DNA of 21,676 nucleotides from a virus. Under the pieces are notes generated by a model, which had not been told where the DNA came from, made no database searches, and saw nothing but the letters and a program-made list of their open reading frames with translations. Within the stretch, counting starts at the first letter, position 1. Every line of letters starts with the position of its first letter. The position numbers and the translations under genes were made by a program. Below, piece by piece: positions 1,082 to 21,578 of the stretch. The stretch spans positions 1-21,676 of the IMG/VR virus record IMGVR_UViG_3300021197_001721; one strand, written 5' to 3'.

Positions 1082-2278
1082 TTATTTTTTATATTTCGCC
1101 GCTTCCTCAGATCCACCTGTTGCAGTTCCTTTACTGTAACTGTGGGCACCCATGCCAGCAAGTTCACCATTCTGTACAATTAGGTATTGATCCCTGATTG
1201 GTGTGTTATCGAACATACATTCCAGTATCTCTCTAACACCGTCAGCATATCTTGTCTGTGCTGATAGTGATGTTCCTGATGTGTGTGGTGTCATGCCATG
1301 ATTTGGCATTGATCTCCAAACGTGATCATTTGGTGCTGGTTGTGGGAACCAAACGTCTCCTGCATAACCAGACAGTTGTCCACTCTTCAATGCGTCAGCG
1401 ATGGCTTCTCTGTTACAGATCTTGCCTCTCGCAGTGTTGACAATGTAGGCACCTTTTTTCATCTTGCCTATCATCTCAGCATCAAATAAGTTTTCCGTCT
1501 CTGGGTGTAGTGGACAGTTGATTGTCACGACGTCACACACCTTGACCATTGACTCCACTGACTCATGGAAAGTGAGATTTAGCTCTTGTTCCACTGCTTC
1601 AGGTAGTCTGTGTCTGTCAAAGTAATGTAGATGTACATCAAATGGTTTCATTTTTCTCAGTGCGTCCAAGCCAATACGTCCAGCCGCAACTGTACCTATG
1701 TGCATACCTTCAACGTCATATGATCTTTGTACTGCGTCAGCAATATTCCAACCACCTGCGTTAACGATTGCGTGTTGGGTGTGATAATCTCTGACCATAG
1801 AAACTATCATCATCACGATGTGTTCAGCAACTGATCTTGAATTACAGTAAGTCACTTCTACAACATCAATCTTGTGATCCATAGCCGCTTGTAAGTCCAC
1901 GTGATCAGATCCGATACCTGCCGTGATTGCCATCTTAAGGTTCTTCGCTTTCTCCATTTTTTCTCTTGTCAGATAGTAAGGGAAAAACGGTTGAGAAATA
2001 ACAACGTCTGCGTCTACCAGCTCTTTGTCTGCTTCGCAGTCGTCACCATCTTTGCTAGAAGTCACAACAAGCTCATGGCCTGCGTCCTCTAGAAACTTTC
2101 TTAGTCCAAGTTCGCCAGACACACAACCTAATAGTTCACCCGCATTAAAATCTCTGCCTTTTGGTGATGGTAGTGTCATACCGTCTGGATACTTTTCTAA
2201 CTTGGGTAGATCCGTAAGTGGATAACTCTCAGGCATTCCGCCTTTTGGGTCGTCGTATAATACGCATAGTATTTTCAT
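1082..2278 (-). CDS. fdh: NAD-dependent formate dehydrogenase (D-2-hydroxyacid dehydrogenase family)
   Basis: Oxidises formate to CO2 with reduction of NAD+ to NADH, as a soluble metal-free dimer in the cytoplasm (EC 1.17.1.9). At 398 aa it has the family's usual full length (about 400). The sequence can be laid along the well-studied Pseudomonas sp. 101 enzyme with the same residue numbers: Ile122, Cys145-Asn146, Rossmann motif GTVAAGRIG (195-203), Asp221 (NAD choice), Arg284, Asp308, Gln313, His332 and Ser334, plus the C-terminal GAHSYSKG. All catalytic and cofactor residues are therefore present, and no truncation or frameshift is seen. It has its own sigma70 promoter and a strong AGGAG 6 nt before the ATG. 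As an auxiliary metabolic gene it could supply NADH from C1 compounds during infection. Other 2-hydroxyacid dehydrogenases lack the Asn146/Gln313/His332 set, so the assignment is firm. Confidence 0.96.
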   Translation of the reverse strand: MKILCVLYDDPKGGMPESYPLTDLPKLEKYPDGMTLPSPKGRDFNAGELLGCVSGELGLRKFLEDAGHELVVTSSKDGDDCEADKELVDADVVISQPFFPYYLTREKMEKAKNLKMAITAGIGSDHVDLQAAMDHKIDVVEVTYCNSRSVAEHIVMMIVSMVRDYHTQHAIVNAGGWNIADAVQRSYDVEGMHIGTVAAGRIGLDALRKMKPFDVHLHYFDRHRLPEAVEQELNLTFHESVESMVKVCDVVTINCPLHPETENLFDAEMIGKMKKGAYIVNTARGKICNREAIADALKSGQLSGYAGDVWFPQPAPNDHVWRSMPNHGMTPHTSGTSLSAQTRYADGVREILECMFDNTPIRDQYLIVQNGELAGMGAHSYSKGTATGGSEEAAKYKK

Positions 2279-2300
2279 TTTATCTCCTGTTAGTGTAATG

Positions 2301-2329
2301 ATTATACAGAATTTTCTTGTGCCTGTCTA
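2301..2329 (-). promoter_or_regulatory. Sigma70 promoter of formate dehydrogenase
   Basis: On the minus strand TAGACA (2324-2329), a 17-bp spacer and a perfect TATAAT (2301-2306). The predicted start near 2294 gives a 16-nt leader carrying AGGAG before the ATG at 2278. It overlaps the last codons and stop of uvdE. Confidence 0.8.
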
Positions 2330-3342
2330 TATAATTGTTCCGATGCCATGTTCTTGCCTTTGGCTTCTACCTGTATATCGAAGTGATCTGAGAACGATAA
2401 TGCCCAGTCATTGACTTTCCTATTTGGTAATAGGTCAGAGTGTGCCCTTAGTTTCTGTTTCTTGCAACCTCTGTCCAGTAAATCTTTGATGTTGTGCATC
2501 TCTGTGTGTGTTTTGTCACCTAGTCCTGCCACTGCTAGATGTTCGTCCCTGGAGTACGAGTAGTGCATACTAGGTCTGACACCACGCCAAGAGTCAATGA
2601 TCCTTTTTACCCTGTCGTCGTTGGCTTCTATGTATTCCTCATCTCTGATCCAGTGATGATGTATGTCCATAACCAGTGCTAGATGTTTTTCCAGCATCAA
2701 CGACTGTTCAAGTCCATGCGACATCTCGTCATTCTCTATGGTGATAAGATTCCTTGCCTCCTGCGACAACCTAGGCAGTGCTTTTATAATGCCGTCTGGT
2801 CCTTGCTTGCCTGAGATGTGTACGTTTATCTTGCAACCATCCTGGAAGCTCTTGCCAAATCCCATCCAACGTGCCAGGTCTGCATGATATTCAAACTCTT
2901 CTATGCTCCTCTCCACTATTTCTGGAGTTGCACTTGATAGCACACAGAACTGTCCAGGATGGAAACTAATTTTTACATCTAATTTTCTTGCCATTTCACC
3001 AACAGGTGAGAATAATTTTTCTAGGTGACTCTGTATGTGCGGTTGTTGCCACCATACCTTCCAGTCTTTCTCTGTGTAGCCCTGCAACATCTCACTGCCC
3101 AGTCGAACCATCCTACGTCCGGGTGGTAGTGAACCAACACGTTGTACAAGTTTCCTTGCCGCGATAGAGTTGTGTGTCATGATGTCCCACTGTCTCTGTA
3201 CTGCTTCGTCCTTGTGTTCTCGAAGCCATCGCATTGTTGTTGATCTACCATTGAGATCCCTGTCCTTGGCGTTCACTTTCATTCCACCAAATTCAGATGT
3301 GTCATTGAGCCATTTACAGCAGAAGCCGATTCTTTTGTGCAT
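2302..3342 (-). CDS. uvdE: UV-damage endonuclease UvdE/UvsE
   Basis: Nicks DNA 5' of cyclobutane dimers and 6-4 photoproducts to start alternative excision repair; a metal-dependent TIM-barrel enzyme. At 346 aa it is somewhat longer than the Thermus protein (about 300). Metal-site motifs appear in family order: SFHPGQ (126-131), NVHISG (173-178), ENDE (203-206), DIHHH (226-230), MHYS (259-262), HSD (301-303) and EAKGK (326-330). The Lys expected two residues before the His of the K-x-H-x-S motif appears to be Ser258. The ATG at 3342 is the only sensible start (MHKRIGF), but it has no Shine-Dalgarno: a perfect TTGACA/TATAAT promoter ends 6 nt before it, so the mRNA is predicted to be leaderless. 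Its 3' end contains the formate dehydrogenase promoter. Useful to a phage in sunlit surface water. Confidence 0.93.
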   Translation of the reverse strand: MHKRIGFCCKWLNDTSEFGGMKVNAKDRDLNGRSTTMRWLREHKDEAVQRQWDIMTHNSIAARKLVQRVGSLPPGRRMVRLGSEMLQGYTEKDWKVWWQQPHIQSHLEKLFSPVGEMARKLDVKISFHPGQFCVLSSATPEIVERSIEEFEYHADLARWMGFGKSFQDGCKINVHISGKQGPDGIIKALPRLSQEARNLITIENDEMSHGLEQSLMLEKHLALVMDIHHHWIRDEEYIEANDDRVKRIIDSWRGVRPSMHYSYSRDEHLAVAGLGDKTHTEMHNIKDLLDRGCKKQKLRAHSDLLPNRKVNDWALSFSDHFDIQVEAKGKNMASEQLYRQAQENSV

Positions 3343-3348
3343 GTTGTT

Positions 3349-3376
3349 ATTATAACAGGTATTAGAAGTGTGTCAA
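3349..3376 (-). promoter_or_regulatory. Consensus sigma70 promoter of uvdE (leaderless start)
   Basis: On the minus strand a perfect TTGACA (3371-3376), a 16-bp spacer and a perfect TATAAT (3349-3354). Six bases separate the -10 box from the ATG at 3342, so the start of transcription should fall on or next to the A of the ATG. Confidence 0.85.
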
Positions 3377-3379
3377 TAG

Positions 3380-3402
3380 TAAGGCGGATTATTACCGCCT
3401 TA
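3380..3402 (-). terminator. Hairpin after rubrerythrin, probable (bidirectional) terminator
   Basis: Perfect 8-bp stem TAAGGCGG/CCGCCTTA with a 7-nt loop, placed between the rubrerythrin stop (3420) and the uvdE -35 box. On the minus strand the tail (CTATTG) is poor in T; on the plus strand it is T-rich (TTATTCTTTAT). It may therefore stop antisense transcripts better, or simply protect the mRNA 3' end. Confidence 0.6.
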
Positions 3403-3419
3403 TTATTCTTTATATGATA

Positions 3420-3845
3420 TTACTTTTGTGATTCGTAGGCATCCAATGTTTTTTGGAATTTACCTGCGTGTGATTTTTCTGCTTTGGCTAGTGTTTCAAA
3501 CCAATCAGCAATCTCTTCAAATCCCTCTTCTCTGGCAGTTCTCGCCATGCCTGGGTACATGTCTGTGTACTCATGCACTTCACCTTTGACTGCAGATTTA
3601 AGATTGTCCGCTGTCTCGCCCATTTTCTCACCTGTGGCTGGATCGCCAACTTCTTCTAGGTACTCTAGATGTCCGTGTGCGTGTCCTGTCTCACCTTCGG
3701 CAGTGCTTCTGAACACAGATGCCACATCTGGTGCTCCTTCGATGTCGGCCTTTTGTGCGAAGTAAAGATATCTTCTGTTGGCTTGTGACTCACCTGCGAA
3801 AGCATCTTTAAGATTTTCGGCTGTTTTACTATCTTTTAGTTCCAT
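3420..3845 (-). CDS. Rubrerythrin-family diiron protein, no rubredoxin domain
   Basis: Ferritin-like four-helix diiron protein, probably an NAD(P)H-linked peroxidase acting in the cytoplasm. The 141 residues hold the full ligand set: Glu19 (FAGES), Glu52-x-x-His55, Glu89/Glu92 in KGEVHEY, and Glu123-x-x-His126. The C-terminal CxxC/CxxC rubredoxin domain of classical rubrerythrins (about 190 aa) is absent, as in the short rubrerythrins and sulerythrin, so a separate electron donor is needed. The ATG at 3845 is chosen because [11 protein letters not shown] is a typical N-terminus and AAGGA lies 9 nt upstream. A GTG at 3917 would add 24 untypical residues and run through the leader hairpins. The gene has its own consensus promoter and an 87-nt structured leader. 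Confidence 0.92.
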
Positions 3846-3863
3846 AATATGTTTTCCTTGTTT

Positions 3864-3886
3864 TTGCAAATGCGTACTATTTGCAA
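3864..3886 (-). promoter_or_regulatory. Second hairpin in the rubrerythrin leader
   Basis: Perfect 8-bp stem TTGCAAAT/ATTTGCAA with a 7-nt loop AGTACGC in the minus-strand RNA, ending a few bases before the ACAAGGA ribosome site (3855-3861). It could hold the site open, be a protein-binding operator, or protect the 5' end. Confidence 0.5.
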
Positions 3887-3902
3887 TGGTTAGCTTAAAA
3901 CG

Positions 3903-3926
3903 AAAAAAAGGAATCACAAGGATCCC
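3903..3926 (-). terminator. Intrinsic terminator-like hairpin inside the rubrerythrin leader (possible attenuator)
   Basis: Minus-strand RNA GGGATC, loop CTTGT, GATTCC (six pairs, one G-U) followed by seven U. It lies after the ParB-like gene, so it could end that operon. However, it also lies about 6 nt downstream of the predicted rubrerythrin transcription start at 3932, so transcripts from that promoter must pass it. Confidence 0.6.
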
Positions 3927-3938
3927 TTCTTTATAATT

Positions 3939-3967
3939 ATTATAAACTACTTATCTGGATTTGTCAA
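3939..3967 (-). promoter_or_regulatory. Consensus sigma70 promoter of rubrerythrin
   Basis: On the minus strand a perfect TTGACA (3962-3967), a 17-bp spacer and a perfect TATAAT (3939-3944): the ideal bacterial promoter. Predicted start near 3932, leader about 87 nt. The -35 box directly abuts the stop codon of the ParB-like gene. Confidence 0.87.
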
Positions 3968-4360
3968 CTAGTCTTCTAGAAGAGATTGCATCATTGCCCA
4001 GTGTCCTATTATGTCACTGCAATTAAGTTTGAAACCAAACTCCCTGTCTATGTCCCTCAGAATCTTGTTGGCCTTTGCCATGCTCAGGCCCACGTTTGCG
4101 GGCATCGGTATTGCATTTATTGTCTTTCTCTTCAATCCTTTTGCGGCCTGTACTCTGTGCCAGCCATCTGTAAGCAAGTAGTAGCCAGAATCTTTTATTG
4201 GTGTTACCAGGATAGGATCCCAAGCACCCTCTTTCTTTAACTTTGCAATCCATCCACGTTTCTCTTTGTTCAGAGGACGCACCACACCCAGTCCCATCTC
4301 TGCCATTGTGACCAGTTTGTCTATGTCTACTTTGATCTTTTTAAGTTTAATCTGTTTCAT
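3968..4360 (-). CDS. ParB/sulfiredoxin-like domain protein
   Basis: A 130-aa protein with one ParB N-terminal/Srx-like fold: GAWDPILVTP (residues 45-54) then LLTDGWHRVQAA (62-73), matching the family's 'pattern, then DG-H-R-A' signature, and KRKTINAIPM (78-87) for the following strand. ParB/Srx-domain proteins in phages include nucleases, ATPases and CTPases, so the biochemical role is open. Residues 88-130 are mostly helical and unassigned. There is no DNA-binding helix-turn-helix of true partition ParB and no ParA nearby, so plasmid partition is unlikely. The start overlaps the end of the preceding 80-aa gene by 14 bp with no Shine-Dalgarno, suggesting coupling within the co-chaperonin operon. 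The rubrerythrin -35 box abuts its stop codon. Confidence 0.78.
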   Translation of the reverse strand: MKQIKLKKIKVDIDKLVTMAEMGLGVVRPLNKEKRGWIAKLKKEGAWDPILVTPIKDSGYYLLTDGWHRVQAAKGLKRKTINAIPMPANVGLSMAKANKILRDIDREFGFKLNCSDIIGHWAMMQSLLED

Positions 4361-4589
4361 ATTCGATATTGTCTATGTTGTGTATTATCTGCCATTCAGG
4401 ACCATGGGGTAATGGTCTTCTCTGTGGGTAATCATTCACGTCTGATATCTCTCTGTATTTGTTCGCACAGGGTGGACCACAGAATGGTCGGATTATTCTT
4501 TTTTCGTACTTGGTGTCGTGTAAGCTGTCGTACCAGTAAATTGCGTTTATGAAAGTTTTCTTACAGACGTAACAGGTATGACTAGTCAT
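4347..4589 (-). CDS. Small protein with two Cys pairs (zinc-ribbon-like), 80 aa
   Basis: Not recognised as a named family. Cys6-x2-Cys9 and Cys37-x3-Cys41 form a four-Cys arrangement that could bind zinc; the first is in HTCYVCKKTF and the second in RPFCGPPCANKY, resembling treble-clef or MYM/FCS-type fingers, where the C-terminal Cys pair starts a helix. The C-terminal 35 residues are acidic and Pro-rich with no clear fold. The ATG overlaps the co-chaperonin stop by 8 bp and the gene overlaps the ParB-like gene by 14 bp, so all three seem to be made from one mRNA. Nucleic-acid or protein binding is a guess. Confidence 0.65.
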   Translation of the reverse strand: MTSHTCYVCKKTFINAIYWYDSLHDTKYEKRIIRPFCGPPCANKYREISDVNDYPQRRPLPHGPEWQIIHNIDNIEYETD

Positions 4590-5046
4590 TGCCAGGGAGT
4601 TTGGTCATCTGCTGGGCACCGCCCATGTTGACGTATCCTGCCTGTTTCCTATTGAAATCTGGTTCCTCGTCTGAGACTAACAGGATGTCATTCTCGTCTA
4701 TCATTCTCACTTCAAGTTCAACACCGATGTCACCTGCTGATCCTTTTTCTTTTCTCTTTAGTTTGAAAGCTCTTGACCACCGGCCATGTGAGACCAATAC
4801 CCATTGTCCAACTGTCACGTCTTCTTGTAGGTTCCCCACAGCATATACCTTGCCCCATCTAGGGTGGATACCTTCTGCTGATCCGTCATCGTCAACAAGT
4901 ATGATCCCGCCCTTGGATTTTGTTTCTCCGAAGTGCATGTCAGATACTAGTACTCTCTTCTTTAGGGGTGTGATATCGTTCTCGACAGTGTATTGCTTTC
5001 CACCATCTCCACCAAATCCTTTTGCCTGTGCTGTTTTAATGTCCAT
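4582..5046 (-). CDS. GroES/gp31-like co-chaperonin
   Basis: Co-chaperonin that caps the host GroEL ring, typically used by T4-like phages to fold the major capsid protein. Of 154 aa, residues 25-127 align with GroES: ITPLKKRVLV, then the mobile loop ETKSKGGIILVDD (41-53), whose IIL is the equivalent of the GroES hydrophobic tripeptide IVL. These are followed by GKVYAVGN (65-72), VGQWVLV and the closing MIDENDILLV (115-124). The mobile loop is closer to bacterial GroES than to T4 gp31. Extra parts are a Gly/Lys-rich N-terminal arm (1-22) and a C-terminal extension (128-154). The ATG at 5046 is the first possible start; it has no Shine-Dalgarno and lies only about 3 nt after the predicted transcription start. 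It leads an overlapping three-gene unit. Confidence 0.9.
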   Translation of the reverse strand: MDIKTAQAKGFGGDGGKQYTVENDITPLKKRVLVSDMHFGETKSKGGIILVDDDGSAEGIHPRWGKVYAVGNLQEDVTVGQWVLVSHGRWSRAFKLKRKEKGSAGDIGVELEVRMIDENDILLVSDEEPDFNRKQAGYVNMGGAQQMTKLPGND

Positions 5047-5055
5047 CGTAGTATT

Positions 5056-5084
5056 ATTATACTAGATTTATTCTAATCCGTCAA
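5056..5084 (-). promoter_or_regulatory. Sigma70 promoter of the co-chaperonin operon (near-leaderless)
   Basis: On the minus strand TTGACG (5079-5084), a 17-bp spacer and a perfect TATAAT (5056-5061). Predicted start near 5049, only about 3 nt before the ATG at 5046. It lies across the end of the 137-aa gene. Confidence 0.83.
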
Positions 5085-5481
5085 GTGCTTCGTCGATACC
5101 TTTTTTAGGTGCAACAGTTTTCTTTGGTGCCGCTTTCACAGTTGCCTTAGGTGTTGCTACTTTAGTCGTTGCCACTTTAGGCGTTGCTACTTTTGTCTCG
5201 ACTGTTTTTGTTTCAACTGCTTTTGGTTGTGGTGCTGGTTTCTGCATTATGGCAGAGGGACCTTCGCTGGCCTTACCTTTAGGTTGTTCGTAGTATTTCT
5301 TGATCACTTGTGATTTTGGAGTGACCACTTGTCCGTTTGCTCCTAGTACATCACCTCTTGCATTTACTTTCATATTACCAACAGCTTGTACTGATTCGTT
5401 GGCCGCTCTCAATTGGTCTATGTCCACCATACGTCCCTGCATGGTTCTGTACATTTTTTTTCTTGTTGGTCTTGCTACCAT
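5068..5481 (-). CDS. Conserved-looking basic protein with Lys/Ala/Thr/Pro repeat tail, 137 aa
   Basis: No family recognised. Residues 1-60 are basic and probably folded (starts MVARPTRKKMYRTMQGR, then a helix around DIDQLRAANESVQAV). From about residue 75 the sequence turns into a low-complexity tail built from VETK, VATPK, VATTK and AAPKK units, ending in an acidic IDEALDGLE. Such tails resemble histone H1-like or alanine/lysine-rich nucleic-acid-binding regions, but could equally be a disordered linker in a virion or scaffold protein. AGGAG lies 6 nt before the ATG. The next gene's sigma70 -35 box begins 9 bp before the end of this gene's stop codon. Confidence 0.72.
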   Translation of the reverse strand: MVARPTRKKMYRTMQGRMVDIDQLRAANESVQAVGNMKVNARGDVLGANGQVVTPKSQVIKKYYEQPKGKASEGPSAIMQKPAPQPKAVETKTVETKVATPKVATTKVATPKATVKAAPKKTVAPKKGIDEALDGLE

Positions 5482-5507
5482 TATATGCTCCTATTTTAAA
5501 TTACTTA

Positions 5508-6029
5508 TCATCTCAGAAATTCAGTGATATCCAAATTGTACAGCAAAGGATTAATCTTGTGTACTCCTATTAGGAATAAACAGAAACTTGCAACTGAACT
5601 GCCTCTACCCACACCCCATACTAAATTATTTGCTCTCAATGTGTCCACGAAGTACATTAGGAATTGTAATACCTTTATAAAGTCTTTCTGTTCAAACAGT
5701 TTGTATTCCATTTGTACTCTCGTCTTCTCATCATTGTTCTGACATTTATCCAAAAGCCATTCAAGCACATCAATTTGGTAATACTTGTCAGGCATGTGCC
5801 AGTTGTTGATGTTCTTGTGATCAAACTCTTCTAACGATTCTCTTTTCGATACTGTGTTTATTATGGGCAGGTCAATGCCTAGCTCTTTGAGACTGCTGTT
5901 GTATTTTTCAGTATCCTCGAAGAATAGTTTGGAGATGTTGAATTTAGGATCTGTGTATAATAGGTCTATTGCTTCTTGCTCTGTGAATATAACATCACCG
6001 TGATCATTTATTTTTATCTTTGCCGCCAT
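5508..6029 (-). CDS. Stand-alone fragment resembling the DNA polymerase III alpha (C-family) palm, 173 aa
   Basis: Residues 115-173 match the start of the DnaE/PolC palm: a helix (FIKVLQFLMYFVDTLRANN), then VWGVGRGSSVASFCLFLIGV (137-156) and INPLLYNLDITEFL. This corresponds to the bacterial GPGRGS-x-AGSLVAYAL-x-I-x-DPL-x-(FY)-(DN)-L-x-FERFLNPER region. The protein stops where FLNPER should follow, so the catalytic Asp-x-Asp strand, fingers and tau-binding parts are all missing. Residues 1-110 are acidic and match nothing I know. It cannot polymerise DNA alone; a nucleotide- or DNA-binding remnant, or a partner of a replication protein, is possible. It is not an accidental break: only 26 bases separate its stop from the next gene. 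The start overlaps the upstream gene by 26 bp, with AAAGG 8 nt before the ATG. Confidence 0.75.
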   Translation of the reverse strand: MAAKIKINDHGDVIFTEQEAIDLLYTDPKFNISKLFFEDTEKYNSSLKELGIDLPIINTVSKRESLEEFDHKNINNWHMPDKYYQIDVLEWLLDKCQNNDEKTRVQMEYKLFEQKDFIKVLQFLMYFVDTLRANNLVWGVGRGSSVASFCLFLIGVHKINPLLYNLDITEFLR

Positions 6030-7488: not shown

Positions 7489-10089
7489 TTAAATTCCTTT
7501 GTTTCTAAATGCTAGATATTTATCGTTGCTTCTCTCCACCTTGATAATTGTGCCCTCTGCAGGTGCTTCCTTGGTGAAATTAATTGTTGTTTTCTTGTTT
7601 GCTGTGTCGTGTGTTAGTGTTACTCCAAGTTCGTGATCGGCCGATCTCAATGTTCCATCCACTGTCAAGTAACTGGGATCAACATTGTTGTCTGCAGTCA
7701 CTCCACTGCCAACAAATACCACGGAACTTCCTTCTTTTACCAGTATGTCTTGTTCATGCACGATCTCATTAAGCTCGAATGCAGTAGTGGATCCGTCTGC
7801 TGTGAACACTTCTGGAGATACCACACTCTTGCTGACCACATACCTGTCTATGGTAAACTGTATGTTCTTGAAATCTACTTTTTTGTCTTCTATCCTCTTC
7901 TTCAGTTTGCCACTTGTTCCTGGCTTACAGTAACAGATGGGCACTGCCATGACATATCCCAACGGGGCAAGTGTGTCTGACTGTGTCGTCCTCATCCATA
8001 ACGGCAAGTATGTGTATTCCTTGTGTCCCAAGTTCTTCATCCTTGATCTCATGTTAGCCACAGCATTTGGATAGAGATGCGTGACAGTTCCTAGGTCAGC
8101 ACTCAATTGGTTCGCATATCTTACTTTTGATCCAGATGTGCTGAATGATAATCCACCATCTGTTGTTACCTCGTACACTTCATAATCAGTTGTGGTATTC
8201 GTACTTGAAGCCTTGGGTCCTAGTACAGGTTTTGCGATAGCATCTCTCAATTTTATTGAACTTGCTACTGATTCACCTTTGCTGTTGACCATGGTGTCTT
8301 TCATCTCAACATAAACCACTTCATATTTCACTACACCGTCTTCCTTGGCCTCTGCTGTTTTTATATCCCCAAAGTATAAAGTTTTTGGTGCATGATTTTG
8401 TTCCATTTGTCTTTGTAAAACTGTCAGTGTCTGTGCTTCCAGGCCTGCCAGTAATAGCATTTCTGCGTTGTTCTTCATTCCAAAATTTGGATCCTCTGCT
8501 CTGTAGATGTCTGCCGAGTTTATGTTTGGATCCTGTGATATGTTATAGAACACATTCTGATCTATGAAAGATGTTGCATGTCCTGACATGTTTCCGTATT
8601 CTGTCTGAGTGTATGGTATATCTACGTTAAGTGTGAAATCTTTTTTGGTTGCCGCGGATTGATATTGATCACTAACAGTGACCTCAAACGTAAATGCTCT
8701 AGTGGAATCTGTGAAGTCACTTGGATCTATAGTTCCTATCAGGTTGCCTGCTTCTGACAGTGTTATGCCCGTCGGCAGTGATCCTGATGTCACATTGTAT
8801 GACAACACCCTATTTGGTTCTTCATCCACAGTCTCTATTGAAAGTAGACTCGGTATGCCCGCGGTCAGTGTTCCTATGATATCTGGTGTTAAGAAGCTGA
8901 TGCCGATGTTGATCTCACCAACCACCTTCATTGTGAATGTTCTTTCTGAGAACGTGTTAAGTCCTGTTGCTACAACTCTGTTGGCCCTTACAGTAAATGT
9001 GTAATCAACTTCCACAGCGGCCTGGCTAGACAATGTTCCGTGTATCTCTCCTGAATTTAGATCAATTGAAAGGCCAGTTGGCAGTGCACCTGATGTTATA
9101 CTGTATTCCAGATTGGCCTGTAAGGGATCGAAGTCCGAAACGTCGATCCTGATGAGAACCTTGTTGTCGTGTCTGAACGTTCCTAGATCTGATGCTGTTG
9201 TGAACACAGGAGGTCTTCCTGTGTGTAGATCCATTGTCACTGAATTGTCACCAATCAGCGTCTGGTCAATTGTGACATTTGAATTTGAAACCACCCAATA
9301 GTCAGCTGAGTAAACAAAAATATTGAAATTACGATCCACACTTGAAACGCCATCAGTTACCCTTACTATGAAATCATAGTTTACAGATCTAGATCTAGAA
9401 AAAACTGTTCTATCGTATATGTTTTGTGGGTCAAGTGAGTTTCCGCCATCACTAGGAGTCAATGCTGAGAAATCAGGAAATGCATCAAAGTCATAACCAC
9501 CCTGTGGTCCGTAATTTTCATCGATTGACAATTCAACAACACCTGATATTTTACCACCCAGTGTCATAGTCACCCCCGGTGGAAGTGATCCTTGTACAAC
9601 TTCGTAAACGAGATTCTGTCCTGCCACCGTGTCTGTGTCTGTTGCCACAATGCTGTATTCTATAAATGAACCGTCAAGCACAGTGACATTTCCTGTGACA
9701 TCTGCCGTGGACAATATACTGTCACAAGTTGACGTGCTGTCTGATGTGTACACCGTGGAAAGTGGTTTGTTCAGCTGTCCTGCCACTGTTGTGAATGATG
9801 GTGCATCTGCACCTGACACATCTAGCGTGAATGTTCTGTCTGTGATTGCGGATCCGGCCGTGGCTCGCACGACGAAGGTGTAAAGAGTTCTTTTGGCAAC
9901 CTCAGCCGGAGTTCCTGTTAGTAAGCCCTCGGATGTTATTGACATTCCAGTTGGTAGGCTTCCTGCAATCAGAGAGTACGTAATGGCCGTGGAATCAGTT
10001 GTGTTCGCTTCTAGTTGTAGCGAAAATGCTGACTGTTCATCGATTGATGCCAGTTTTCCTGCTGTGGTTGTCCACACTGGTGTTGCCAT
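7489..10089 (-). CDS. Virion structural protein with four Ig/cadherin-like (putative Ig, He_PIG-type) domains
   Basis: 866 aa. Four beta-sandwich repeats occupy residues 1-91, 96-259, 292-391 and 393-490. Each has the putative-Ig signature: a hydrophobic strand, Y-(S/N/E)-(L/I/V)-x-x-GSLPTG-(M/V/I/L) (for example 43-49, 168-172, 334-340, 436-442), then G-x-(L/I)-x-GT and a final (Y/F)-(T/D)-F-x-V-R-(A/V)-x-x/-F-T-L-x-V strand. Such domains are common in phage tails and bacterial adhesins and bind sugars or proteins weakly. Residues 491-757 form a different domain (VLGPKAS, DTLAPLGYVMAVPICYC), perhaps the conserved virion-anchoring part, and 758-866 a beta-rich tip. AAGGAGT lies 6 nt before the ATG but is covered by a hairpin whose loop holds a late-type promoter octamer. 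Confidence 0.85.
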   Translation of the reverse strand: MATPVWTTTAGKLASIDEQSAFSLQLEANTTDSTAITYSLIAGSLPTGMSITSEGLLTGTPAEVAKRTLYTFVVRATAGSAITDRTFTLDVSGADAPSFTTVAGQLNKPLSTVYTSDSTSTCDSILSTADVTGNVTVLDGSFIEYSIVATDTDTVAGQNLVYEVVQGSLPPGVTMTLGGKISGVVELSIDENYGPQGGYDFDAFPDFSALTPSDGGNSLDPQNIYDRTVFSRSRSVNYDFIVRVTDGVSSVDRNFNIFVYSADYWVVSNSNVTIDQTLIGDNSVTMDLHTGRPPVFTTASDLGTFRHDNKVLIRIDVSDFDPLQANLEYSITSGALPTGLSIDLNSGEIHGTLSSQAAVEVDYTFTVRANRVVATGLNTFSERTFTMKVVGEINIGISFLTPDIIGTLTAGIPSLLSIETVDEEPNRVLSYNVTSGSLPTGITLSEAGNLIGTIDPSDFTDSTRAFTFEVTVSDQYQSAATKKDFTLNVDIPYTQTEYGNMSGHATSFIDQNVFYNISQDPNINSADIYRAEDPNFGMKNNAEMLLLAGLEAQTLTVLQRQMEQNHAPKTLYFGDIKTAEAKEDGVVKYEVVYVEMKDTMVNSKGESVASSIKLRDAIAKPVLGPKASSTNTTTDYEVYEVTTDGGLSFSTSGSKVRYANQLSADLGTVTHLYPNAVANMRSRMKNLGHKEYTYLPLWMRTTQSDTLAPLGYVMAVPICYCKPGTSGKLKKRIEDKKVDFKNIQFTIDRYVVSKSVVSPEVFTADGSTTAFELNEIVHEQDILVKEGSSVVFVGSGVTADNNVDPSYLTVDGTLRSADHELGVTLTHDTANKKTTINFTKEAPAEGTIIKVERSNDKYLAFRNKGI

Positions 10090-10093
10090 TAAA

Positions 10094-10124
10094 ATACTCC
10101 TTACATGGATATTTATTGGAGTAT
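10094..10124 (-). promoter_or_regulatory. Hairpin hiding the ribosome site of the 866-aa gene
   Basis: In minus-strand RNA ATACTCC (10118-10124) pairs perfectly with GGAGTAT (10094-10100), which contains the Shine-Dalgarno, across a 17-nt loop. Messages started at the late-type octamer in the loop would lack the first arm. Confidence 0.6.
10110..10117 (-). promoter_or_regulatory. T4-type late promoter octamer before the 866-aa gene
   Basis: AATAAATA on the minus strand, one base from the T4 late box TATAAATA, 21 bp before the ATG. The predicted start falls near 10104, inside the hairpin loop. Confidence 0.6.
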
Positions 10125-10163
10125 CAACGATTTATAGTGTGTGTTATAGTGTGTTATTAACTA

Positions 10164-12071
10164 TTAACTGACTGCCGCACTAAATGGTGTTGCTGGGTTA
10201 GAACCTGCTGGCACCCTCATTACGCCTCTCACATGATATTGGTTGGTAGCTATGTCAATCAGCTCAAGATAATCACCAACGACACCACCCTGTGTAGTAC
10301 CGTTGAGAGTGATAGTGTCCGAAGCCGCCACTGTTGGGAAGGCTGTAACTGCTGTACCATCTTCATCTAGGTACATCATGATACCGTCGATTGTGTCTGT
10401 TGCATCAGCCACCTGTATCTTGTAGTTTGATGTGTTTGTAACACTAACGATGAATTTGTAAACAGCACCTGTACCAGTCGCCGCCGGTAGTGTTAAAGTC
10501 AGTGCCGCGTTACCACCAACTTCACCAAGTAATAGTGTTCTACCTGCGTGTTCTGTGATCGTAACTGCGTCCGTTGCCACGAATGTGTGTATCGCTGGCA
10601 GGAATGATCCTGTCAGTGTAAGCTGTGAACTTATACCAACTACACCCGTACCCTGTGATGATATGTTGATGTCTGCGTCTGTAGTGTCACTCTGGATTGT
10701 GTTTGATCTCAACACACCCGAAACTTCAATGTCCACTGCGTTCAATTCATTTGTTACACCTACGATCTCTCCACCTAGTACAATAGAACCTGATCCGTTT
10801 GGAGAAATGGTTACACCACCGTTTGTGTCTGTGGCTGTAAGTGCGTTTCCGTCTAATCTCAGGTTGTCAACGTTTACTTGTCCTGTTGTAGTCTGTACAC
10901 CTGTTGCAGTGATAGGTCCTGTCAGCACGATAGCACCTGTACCTGCTGGATCAACAACGAAGTCACCGTTTGTGTCTGTTGTGATTGTACCGTCTGCTAG
11001 GATGTTCAAGTCACCTATTCCAACTGCTCCACCAATTGTAAGTGCACCAGTTGTTGTAAGTGCCACAACTGTTGTAGTTCCTGTCACATCTAGTGTTCCA
11101 CCTACTGTGGCATTGTTTGTAATTGCAGTGTTACCTGTTGCTGTAATAGTACATAGTCCACCTGATGTTATTGTAAGGTCTGTGTTGTCACCTTCGATCT
11201 TCTCACCTGTACCAAATGTTACGCCTACATTGGCAGGAACAACTACATCTGTTGTTGCTGTTAAATTGATTGCACCACCTGAAGTTACTGTAAGGTCTGT
11301 GCTGTCACCTTCAATCTTCTCACCTGTACCAAACGTGATTCCCACGTTTGCAGGTACAACGATGTCTGCCACCGCTGTAAGATTGATGTTGTTTCCTGAA
11401 ATAGTTAAATCTGTTCCGTCACCTTCGATCTTTTCAGCATCATCACCAAAAGTCAAACCGATGTTTGCTGGTATGTTTACATCAGCACCTGCCGTCAAGT
11501 TGATGTCACCAGTTCCTGTTGGATCTAGTGTGATGTCTGCGTTTGAACCATTCGACACGATGTCGTTAGTTGTAACTGAAGTTGCCGTCACACTGTTGTT
11601 GACTGTCAACGCACCTGTTAGAGTAGTTGCCCCTGTCACTGCTAGTGTTGTGCTAAATGCTCCTGATGTTCCTGTAAGTGCCCCTGTTACCGCAACAGTT
11701 GAAGTGGCTGTGACCGCTCCATCGATATTAGTTGCACCGTTCACTTGGAATGCTTCACCTATCGTGATCAGAGATGAATCATCTGAGCTTATTGTAGTTC
11801 CTGCTAGTCTGATTGCTGAAGCAAGTACTCCACCTGTACCAGCTGGTAATAATACTATGTCTTCGTTTGTTCTTGCTGACGTTATTCTTCTTCCGTTAAC
11901 ATCAAGATCTCCACCTAGTTGCGGAGTTGCGTCTTCTATAAGATCGTTGGCCTCGGCCGTTGTGCCGTATAACTCGTCAAAGTTATCGTTTATCTTGTCA
12001 AATGCTGTTCTTAATGGATCACCTGTACCGTCGTTTGCACTAGACCCTATGCCGATTGTTTGTTTAGCCAT
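10164..12071 (-). CDS. Tail-fibre-like repeat protein, 635 aa
   Basis: Starts with the shared N-terminal module (ANDGTGDPLRTAFDKINDNF, residues 12-31), expected to attach the protein to the virion. A beta-repeat shaft follows with S-N-A-D-I-x-L-x-P-x-GTG-type units (for example 177-190, 368-383, 419-432). Three adjacent 39-residue repeats begin at residues 190, 229 and 268 (INLTA, then PAN-x-G-(L/I/V)-TFG, EKIEGD). Residues about 495-635 form a C-terminal beta-domain (TLLLGEVGGNAALTLTLPAA, then YKFIVSVTNTSNY) typical of marine phage tail proteins. No catalytic motif is seen. GGAG is 10 nt before the ATG, with a late-type CATAAATA further upstream. The long plus-strand open frame opposite is a by-product of its codon pattern. 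Confidence 0.85.
   Translation of the reverse strand: MAKQTIGIGSSANDGTGDPLRTAFDKINDNFDELYGTTAEANDLIEDATPQLGGDLDVNGRRITSARTNEDIVLLPAGTGGVLASAIRLAGTTISSDDSSLITIGEAFQVNGATNIDGAVTATSTVAVTGALTGTSGAFSTTLAVTGATTLTGALTVNNSVTATSVTTNDIVSNGSNADITLDPTGTGDINLTAGADVNIPANIGLTFGDDAEKIEGDGTDLTISGNNINLTAVADIVVPANVGITFGTGEKIEGDSTDLTVTSGGAINLTATTDVVVPANVGVTFGTGEKIEGDNTDLTITSGGLCTITATGNTAITNNATVGGTLDVTGTTTVVALTTTGALTIGGAVGIGDLNILADGTITTDTNGDFVVDPAGTGAIVLTGPITATGVQTTTGQVNVDNLRLDGNALTATDTNGGVTISPNGSGSIVLGGEIVGVTNELNAVDIEVSGVLRSNTIQSDTTDADINISSQGTGVVGISSQLTLTGSFLPAIHTFVATDAVTITEHAGRTLLLGEVGGNAALTLTLPAATGTGAVYKFIVSVTNTSNYKIQVADATDTIDGIMMYLDEDGTAVTAFPTVAASDTITLNGTTQGGVVGDYLELIDIATNQYHVRGVMRVPAGSNPATPFSAAVS
11157..11504 (-). 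repeat. Three 39-residue tandem repeats in the 635-aa protein
   Basis: Units start at residues 190, 229 and 268, each INLTA..(V/I)PAN-x-G-x-TFG..EKIEGD-x-TDLT. The third is followed by GGLCTIT, the start of a broken fourth unit. Confidence 0.85.
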
Positions 12072-21565: not shown

Positions 21566-21578
21566 TATTTATTAAATA
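21566..21578. promoter_or_regulatory. Divergent late-type promoter palindrome
   Basis: TATTTA-T-TAAATA is a perfect 13-bp palindrome. On the minus strand it reads AATAAATA (21566-21573), 14 bp before the 568-aa gene; on the plus strand ATTAAATA (21571-21578), before the possible plus-strand gene. Confidence 0.5.

Follow-up and report, generated by a model that had tools for sequence, protein, structure and literature searches.

A predicted T4-type late promoter within a Shine-Dalgarno-sequestering hairpin upstream of a tail gene in an uncultured phage

In phage T4, the Shine-Dalgarno sequence (SD) of gene e (lysozyme) is hidden in the long, early RNA, while the late RNA lacks the 5' strand of the structure; some phages possess the gene and are missing the structure (PMC3014915). 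A late box lying within an SD-hiding hairpin has also been described for T4 I-TevI, I-TevII, I-TevIII and segB, and for Aeh1 mobE (PMC2988022). The late-promoter motif of the cyanomyoviruses S-PM2 and Syn9 is NATAAATA (PMC2984593).

The stretch of DNA analysed here (the window; 21,676 nucleotides of viral DNA from IMG/VR record IMGVR_UViG_3300021197_001721) carries about 19 genes, among them an 866-aa open reading frame (ORF) with a candidate switch of this type in its leader. Upstream of this ORF, the minus strand reads GATACTCC-AATAAATA-TCCATGTAAGGAGTATTTTA-ATG. The features of the site are:

7489–10089, minus strand: downstream gene with the hairpin leader, 866 aa, Ig-like He_PIG domains (Pfam)
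10094–10100, minus strand: 3' arm GGAGTAT, containing most of the SD
10102–10097, minus strand: SD, AAGGAG
10104, minus strand: predicted +1 of the late transcript, from T4 spacing
10110–10117, minus strand: late-promoter box AATAAATA, in the hairpin loop, immediately after the 5' arm
10118–10124, minus strand: 5' arm ATACTCC, directly upstream of the late box and not part of an RNA begun at the late promoter
10129–10136, minus strand: second box-like sequence TATAAATC, upstream of the 5' arm
10164–12071, minus strand: upstream co-directional gene, 635 aa, phrog_677 (baseplate wedge/tail fibre connector)
12114–12107, minus strand: box CATAAATA of the 635-aa gene

The two arms (10124–10118 and 10100–10094) form 7 bp with 100% complementarity and 17 nt between them, confirming the hairpin proposed in the first-pass annotation, in which the loop contains the box and the second arm the SD. 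The span given there, 10089–10124, was essentially right; the feature is slightly wider (10087–10124). T4 late promoters carry their box at positions -13 to -6, a rule that places the predicted +1 at 10104. In RNAfold predictions the long RNA forms the hairpin, and a short RNA begun at that position does not. The z-score of the hairpin is modest (-1.6 to -1.9). Dinucleotide shuffling of the upstream sequence produces a stem of at least 7 bp over the SD in 2.0% of cases, and 24 of the 6182 45-mers of the window (0.4%) have one. Considered on its own, apart from comparative data, the hairpin is suggestive: mildly unlikely by chance, and not compelling. The second box-like sequence was considered as another late box and dropped; it is replaced by TGTAAATC in two relatives of the window (L001 and L002), and is thus probably non-functional.

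The proposed switch would work as follows: (i) RNA reading through from upstream, possibly from the 635-aa gene, would carry both arms and fold into a hairpin that masks the SD of the Ig-domain tail gene, and (ii) the late polymerase, starting at the AATAAATA promoter at about 10104, would produce RNA without the 5' arm, in which the SD is free. The He_PIG gene would then be translated mainly from its own late transcript. We put the probability that a T4-type late promoter inside an SD-sequestering hairpin controls the He_PIG tail gene at roughly 0.6. The position of the +1, the repression itself and the purpose of the switch are what we infer from the arrangement.

The promoter element has support from its placement across the phage group. 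In 668 distinct gene leaders of the window and of 80 related IMG/VR sequences, nearly all occurrences of NATAAATA fall in the ~20–40 nt preceding ATGs. This positioning bears out the earlier claim of a late promoter: NATAAATA, an established late motif among T4-type phages, is a genuine late-promoter motif in this group. Of 20 contigs examined for a gp55-type late sigma factor (phrog_12791), a single one yielded it, the 156-kb contig of L486, a member of the wider family; the other 19 are fragments. No such factor was seen in the window, itself a 21.7-kb fragment. In ten contigs, the pattern NATAAATA N{11,14} AAGGAG gave zero matches, a count to which we attach no weight; the boxes at the He_PIG gene are spaced otherwise there.

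Two further observations concern late boxes at other genes. Firstly, late boxes lie close to the ATG at window positions 21573–21551 and 18973–18955 (minus strand), and in L003, L015, L064 and others. An SD accompanies 0 of 21 boxes that are at most 15 nt before the ATG, and all but one of those that are at least 18 nt away. Several fibre genes may accordingly be translated from near-leaderless late mRNAs, with predicted leaders of mostly 5–9 nt. Secondly, a conserved element resembling TTACATTAGGTTTATAGAAT sits just 5' of the NATAAATA box at window positions ~12142–12107 (minus strand), and a similar element is found upstream of a 480–590 aa fibre gene in most relatives.

Computed accessibility of the SD is consistent with a switch. 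By prediction, the SD lies within a helix in the long RNA of the window, and opening it costs 6.8–7.0 kcal/mol, versus 0.2 kcal/mol in RNA starting at the predicted +1. Mean opening costs (long versus short RNA) are 4.0 versus 0.5 kcal/mol for the window's own subfamily of orthologs (MATPVW), 3.5 versus 0.8 kcal/mol for a sister clade, and 2.1 versus 1.1 kcal/mol for other late genes. Shuffling just the 20 nt before the box removes 1.0, 1.9 and 0.25 kcal/mol from these three groups, respectively.

Raw counts of the arm pattern in IMG/VR were dropped as a test, one of two permuted control arms having outnumbered the real arm, and the gene-family analysis alone was retained. A perfect stem of at least five Watson-Crick pairs adjoins the box in 9 of the 33 clusters of the family (defined at 80% identity), as opposed to 1 among 172 late genes of other kinds (Fisher p ~2e-7). 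The sister clade was gathered with MADFW- and MSEVW-type ortholog queries; both query proteins came from arm-pattern matches, and the relatives that they recovered are unselected for the arm. The hairpin is kept in 20 of 37 sister-clade representatives, with the covarying pairs ACTCC/GGAGT, ATTCC/GGAAT and ATCC/GGAT, and with U-G intermediates in which ATTCC faces GGAGT or GGGAT. Longer matches include TTAATTCC/GGAGTTAA (L473) and TATTTCCT/AGGAGATA (L470). Across 36 distinct sister-clade leaders, the covariation score is 0.216, compared with 0.150 for shuffled arms (0 of 500 reached the real score) and at most 0.120 for slid partners. Arms swapped between members rarely match the real pairing (1–2 of 5000, for summary scores that include G-U pairs); the swap test is weak at 70% clusters (101/1000) and gives 2/1000 at 80% clusters.

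These shuffle probabilities ignore relatedness, and phylogenetically independent compensatory events are few, so the values overstate significance. Independent contrasts number two for and none against at pair 4, a median of about two for and none against at pair 7, and essentially none at pair 6 (~0 for, 1 against). On the tree of 97 orthologs, the hairpin state is clustered and needs ~13 changes. For these reasons, the evidence that the arms covary across the wider family is good but not final.

The window's closest relatives tell a different story. The first-pass annotation had suggested following the two arms through related phages, and held that variation without compensation would refute its reading. 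The arms do covary in distant orthologs, but the closest relatives mostly lack the 5' arm, uncompensated, and, read naively, the MATPVW subfamily shows just the variation that would refute the claim. The box, TGTAAGGAGTA and the ATG are strongly conserved in this subfamily; the 5' arm, in contrast, is present in only about 5 of 56 representatives, and AATCGCC or AATTGCC usually precedes the box. The arm is found in the window, L001 and L002, and in a shifted register in L048 and L049. In L002 it reads GTACTCC, a single A to G change that gives a G-U pair. Three more contigs with the arm (L142, L129 and L114) were recovered via the arm pattern and are hence selected; L142 has U-A at pair 7 where the window has A-U, at a position left unconstrained by the search pattern. 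Patchiness of this kind does not exclude membership of the gene e class, given that T4 e has also lost its structure in some phages carrying the gene. Modelling tentatively suggests that most MATPVW members may use an alternative fold, pairing GCC with GGC of the start region and CCC of the spacer with the SD. This fold (GCCA/UGGC plus UACCC/GG-A-GUA) gives accessibility differences beyond those of other late genes; after shuffling controls, the excess is small.

The absence of the arm from most close relatives is also what would be expected if a conserved late promoter and SD had acquired a fortuitously complementary, functionless 7-mer in a small clade. Such a coincidence has a frequency of 0.4–2% per site in a window of ~19 genes and, because CC before the box is common in the MATPVW subfamily, two of the pairs come free there. 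We nevertheless consider chance unlikely: the stem is enriched in the He_PIG family over other late genes, the sister clade covaries, and the stem is kept in L001, L002 and related contigs, with the U-A for A-U replacement of L142 among them. Translational coupling, in which the hairpin closes the SD and has to be opened by a ribosome completing the gene before it, is a live rival in the sister clade, where the upstream stop overlaps or abuts the 5' arm in many members (TAACTCC, TTAATTCC, TGATTCC). The corresponding stop in the window ends at 10164; this leaves 40 nt to the arm, probably more than a terminating ribosome could reach across. Coupling, moreover, does not require a late box in the loop, where it is invariably found, and we regard this explanation as improbable.

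With one arm on each side of the box, the dyad could instead act at the DNA level, as an operator that overlaps the late promoter and is recognised by a regulator; T4 I-TevI likewise binds an operator situated across the late promoter of its own gene (PMC2988022). This is very improbable, since the second half of the dyad is the SD of a gene, the inter-arm spacing is variable, and the U-G intermediates are valid in the sense RNA only. At pair 4 the counts are C-G 11, U-A 9, U-G 4 and C-A none, a pattern that, in the aligned leaders, fits a sense-strand RNA better than a DNA dyad. An SD-hiding hairpin around the late promoter is the reading that we carry forward, and the data support an architecture of the T4 gene e/I-TevI type, subject to gain and loss, at a virion gene new to this class.

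What the switch would be for depends on the neighbourhood. The 866-aa He_PIG gene is a tail-region gene by genomic context; no near relative was found in the phages collection searched. The locus order (tail gene, He_PIG gene, ~190 aa, ~75–84 aa, DNA polymerase fragment) is common to a distant clade, relative to which the window holds one extra, 212-aa ORF. Downstream, at window positions 1082–6029 (minus strand), lies cargo encoding a 2-hydroxyacid/formate-type dehydrogenase, a UvdE endonuclease, a rubrerythrin and a GroES-like protein, together with a short DNA polymerase fragment. All five co-directional genes upstream of the He_PIG gene in the window are tail or fibre-like; no early genes were seen upstream of it in the window, and sigma-70-like promoter matches show no excess over shuffles. 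The gene e-style reading of the first-pass annotation therefore stands in part: the anatomy resembles that of e, soc and I-TevI and the promoter motif is present, but an early read-through RNA is not evident and the early-versus-late timing is not supported. Given the tail and fibre-like genes upstream, the read-through RNA is possibly late itself, and the switch may serve to shield translation of the gene from polycistronic RNA arriving from upstream no less than to time its expression.

A broader proposal, which we hold to be doubtful, is that a whole family of uncultured T4-superfamily phages restricts translation of this tail gene largely to the gene's own late transcript while swapping the structures that would do so: an ACTCC-type arm in one clade and the window, and pairing of the box, spacer and GCC with the SD and start codon in most of the window's subfamily. 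The hairpin switch proposed for the He_PIG leader would itself widen the range of a control known mainly from the T4 lysis, soc and homing-endonuclease genes, adding a tail gene resident in a large group of uncultured phages, with covariation as evidence. It would also suggest that such switches set a virion gene apart from the genes with which it is cotranscribed, beyond separating early from late.

Similar layouts also turned up at other genes. In L107 (1573–2442), a homing endonuclease gene (phrog_314, NUMOD3) has AACTCCT/AGGAGTT around TATAAATA; this is the classical T4 use, and an unsought positive control for the arm pattern. L167, L135 and L169, recovered through the arm pattern and hence selected, belong to other families (MNNPLTNAFEGL..., MATNALTRIRNN...) and have 6–9 bp SD-hiding stems around the late box. 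At a locus unselected for the arm, in L213 (MHNFSEFIAELK..., 240 aa), TATAAATA and the SD are enclosed by a stem of 9 bp, G-U pairs included.

With respect to described systems, the locus shares with the cyanomyoviruses S-PM2 and Syn9 the box NATAAATA (PMC2984593); it differs in that hairpin use is absent from that promoter description, and in that the nearest isolates here are PA5oct-like. Specifically, the closest isolates for the clamp loader gp44 and the DNA polymerase fragment are PA5oct-like jumbo Pseudomonas phages (54% and 46%), and so "marine T4-like" in the cyanophage sense, the earlier label, is not the best one. I-TevI, I-TevII, I-TevIII, segB and mobE encode mobile endonucleases and are carried on early or middle transcripts, whereas the gene here is resident in the virion region. 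The likeness to T4 gene e is in the late promoter directly upstream of the SD (PMC3014915), and patchy occurrence among relatives is common to gene e and the He_PIG leader. Unlike gene e, the gene here encodes a large Ig-domain tail-region protein behind tail and fibre-like genes, and its switch is a prediction.
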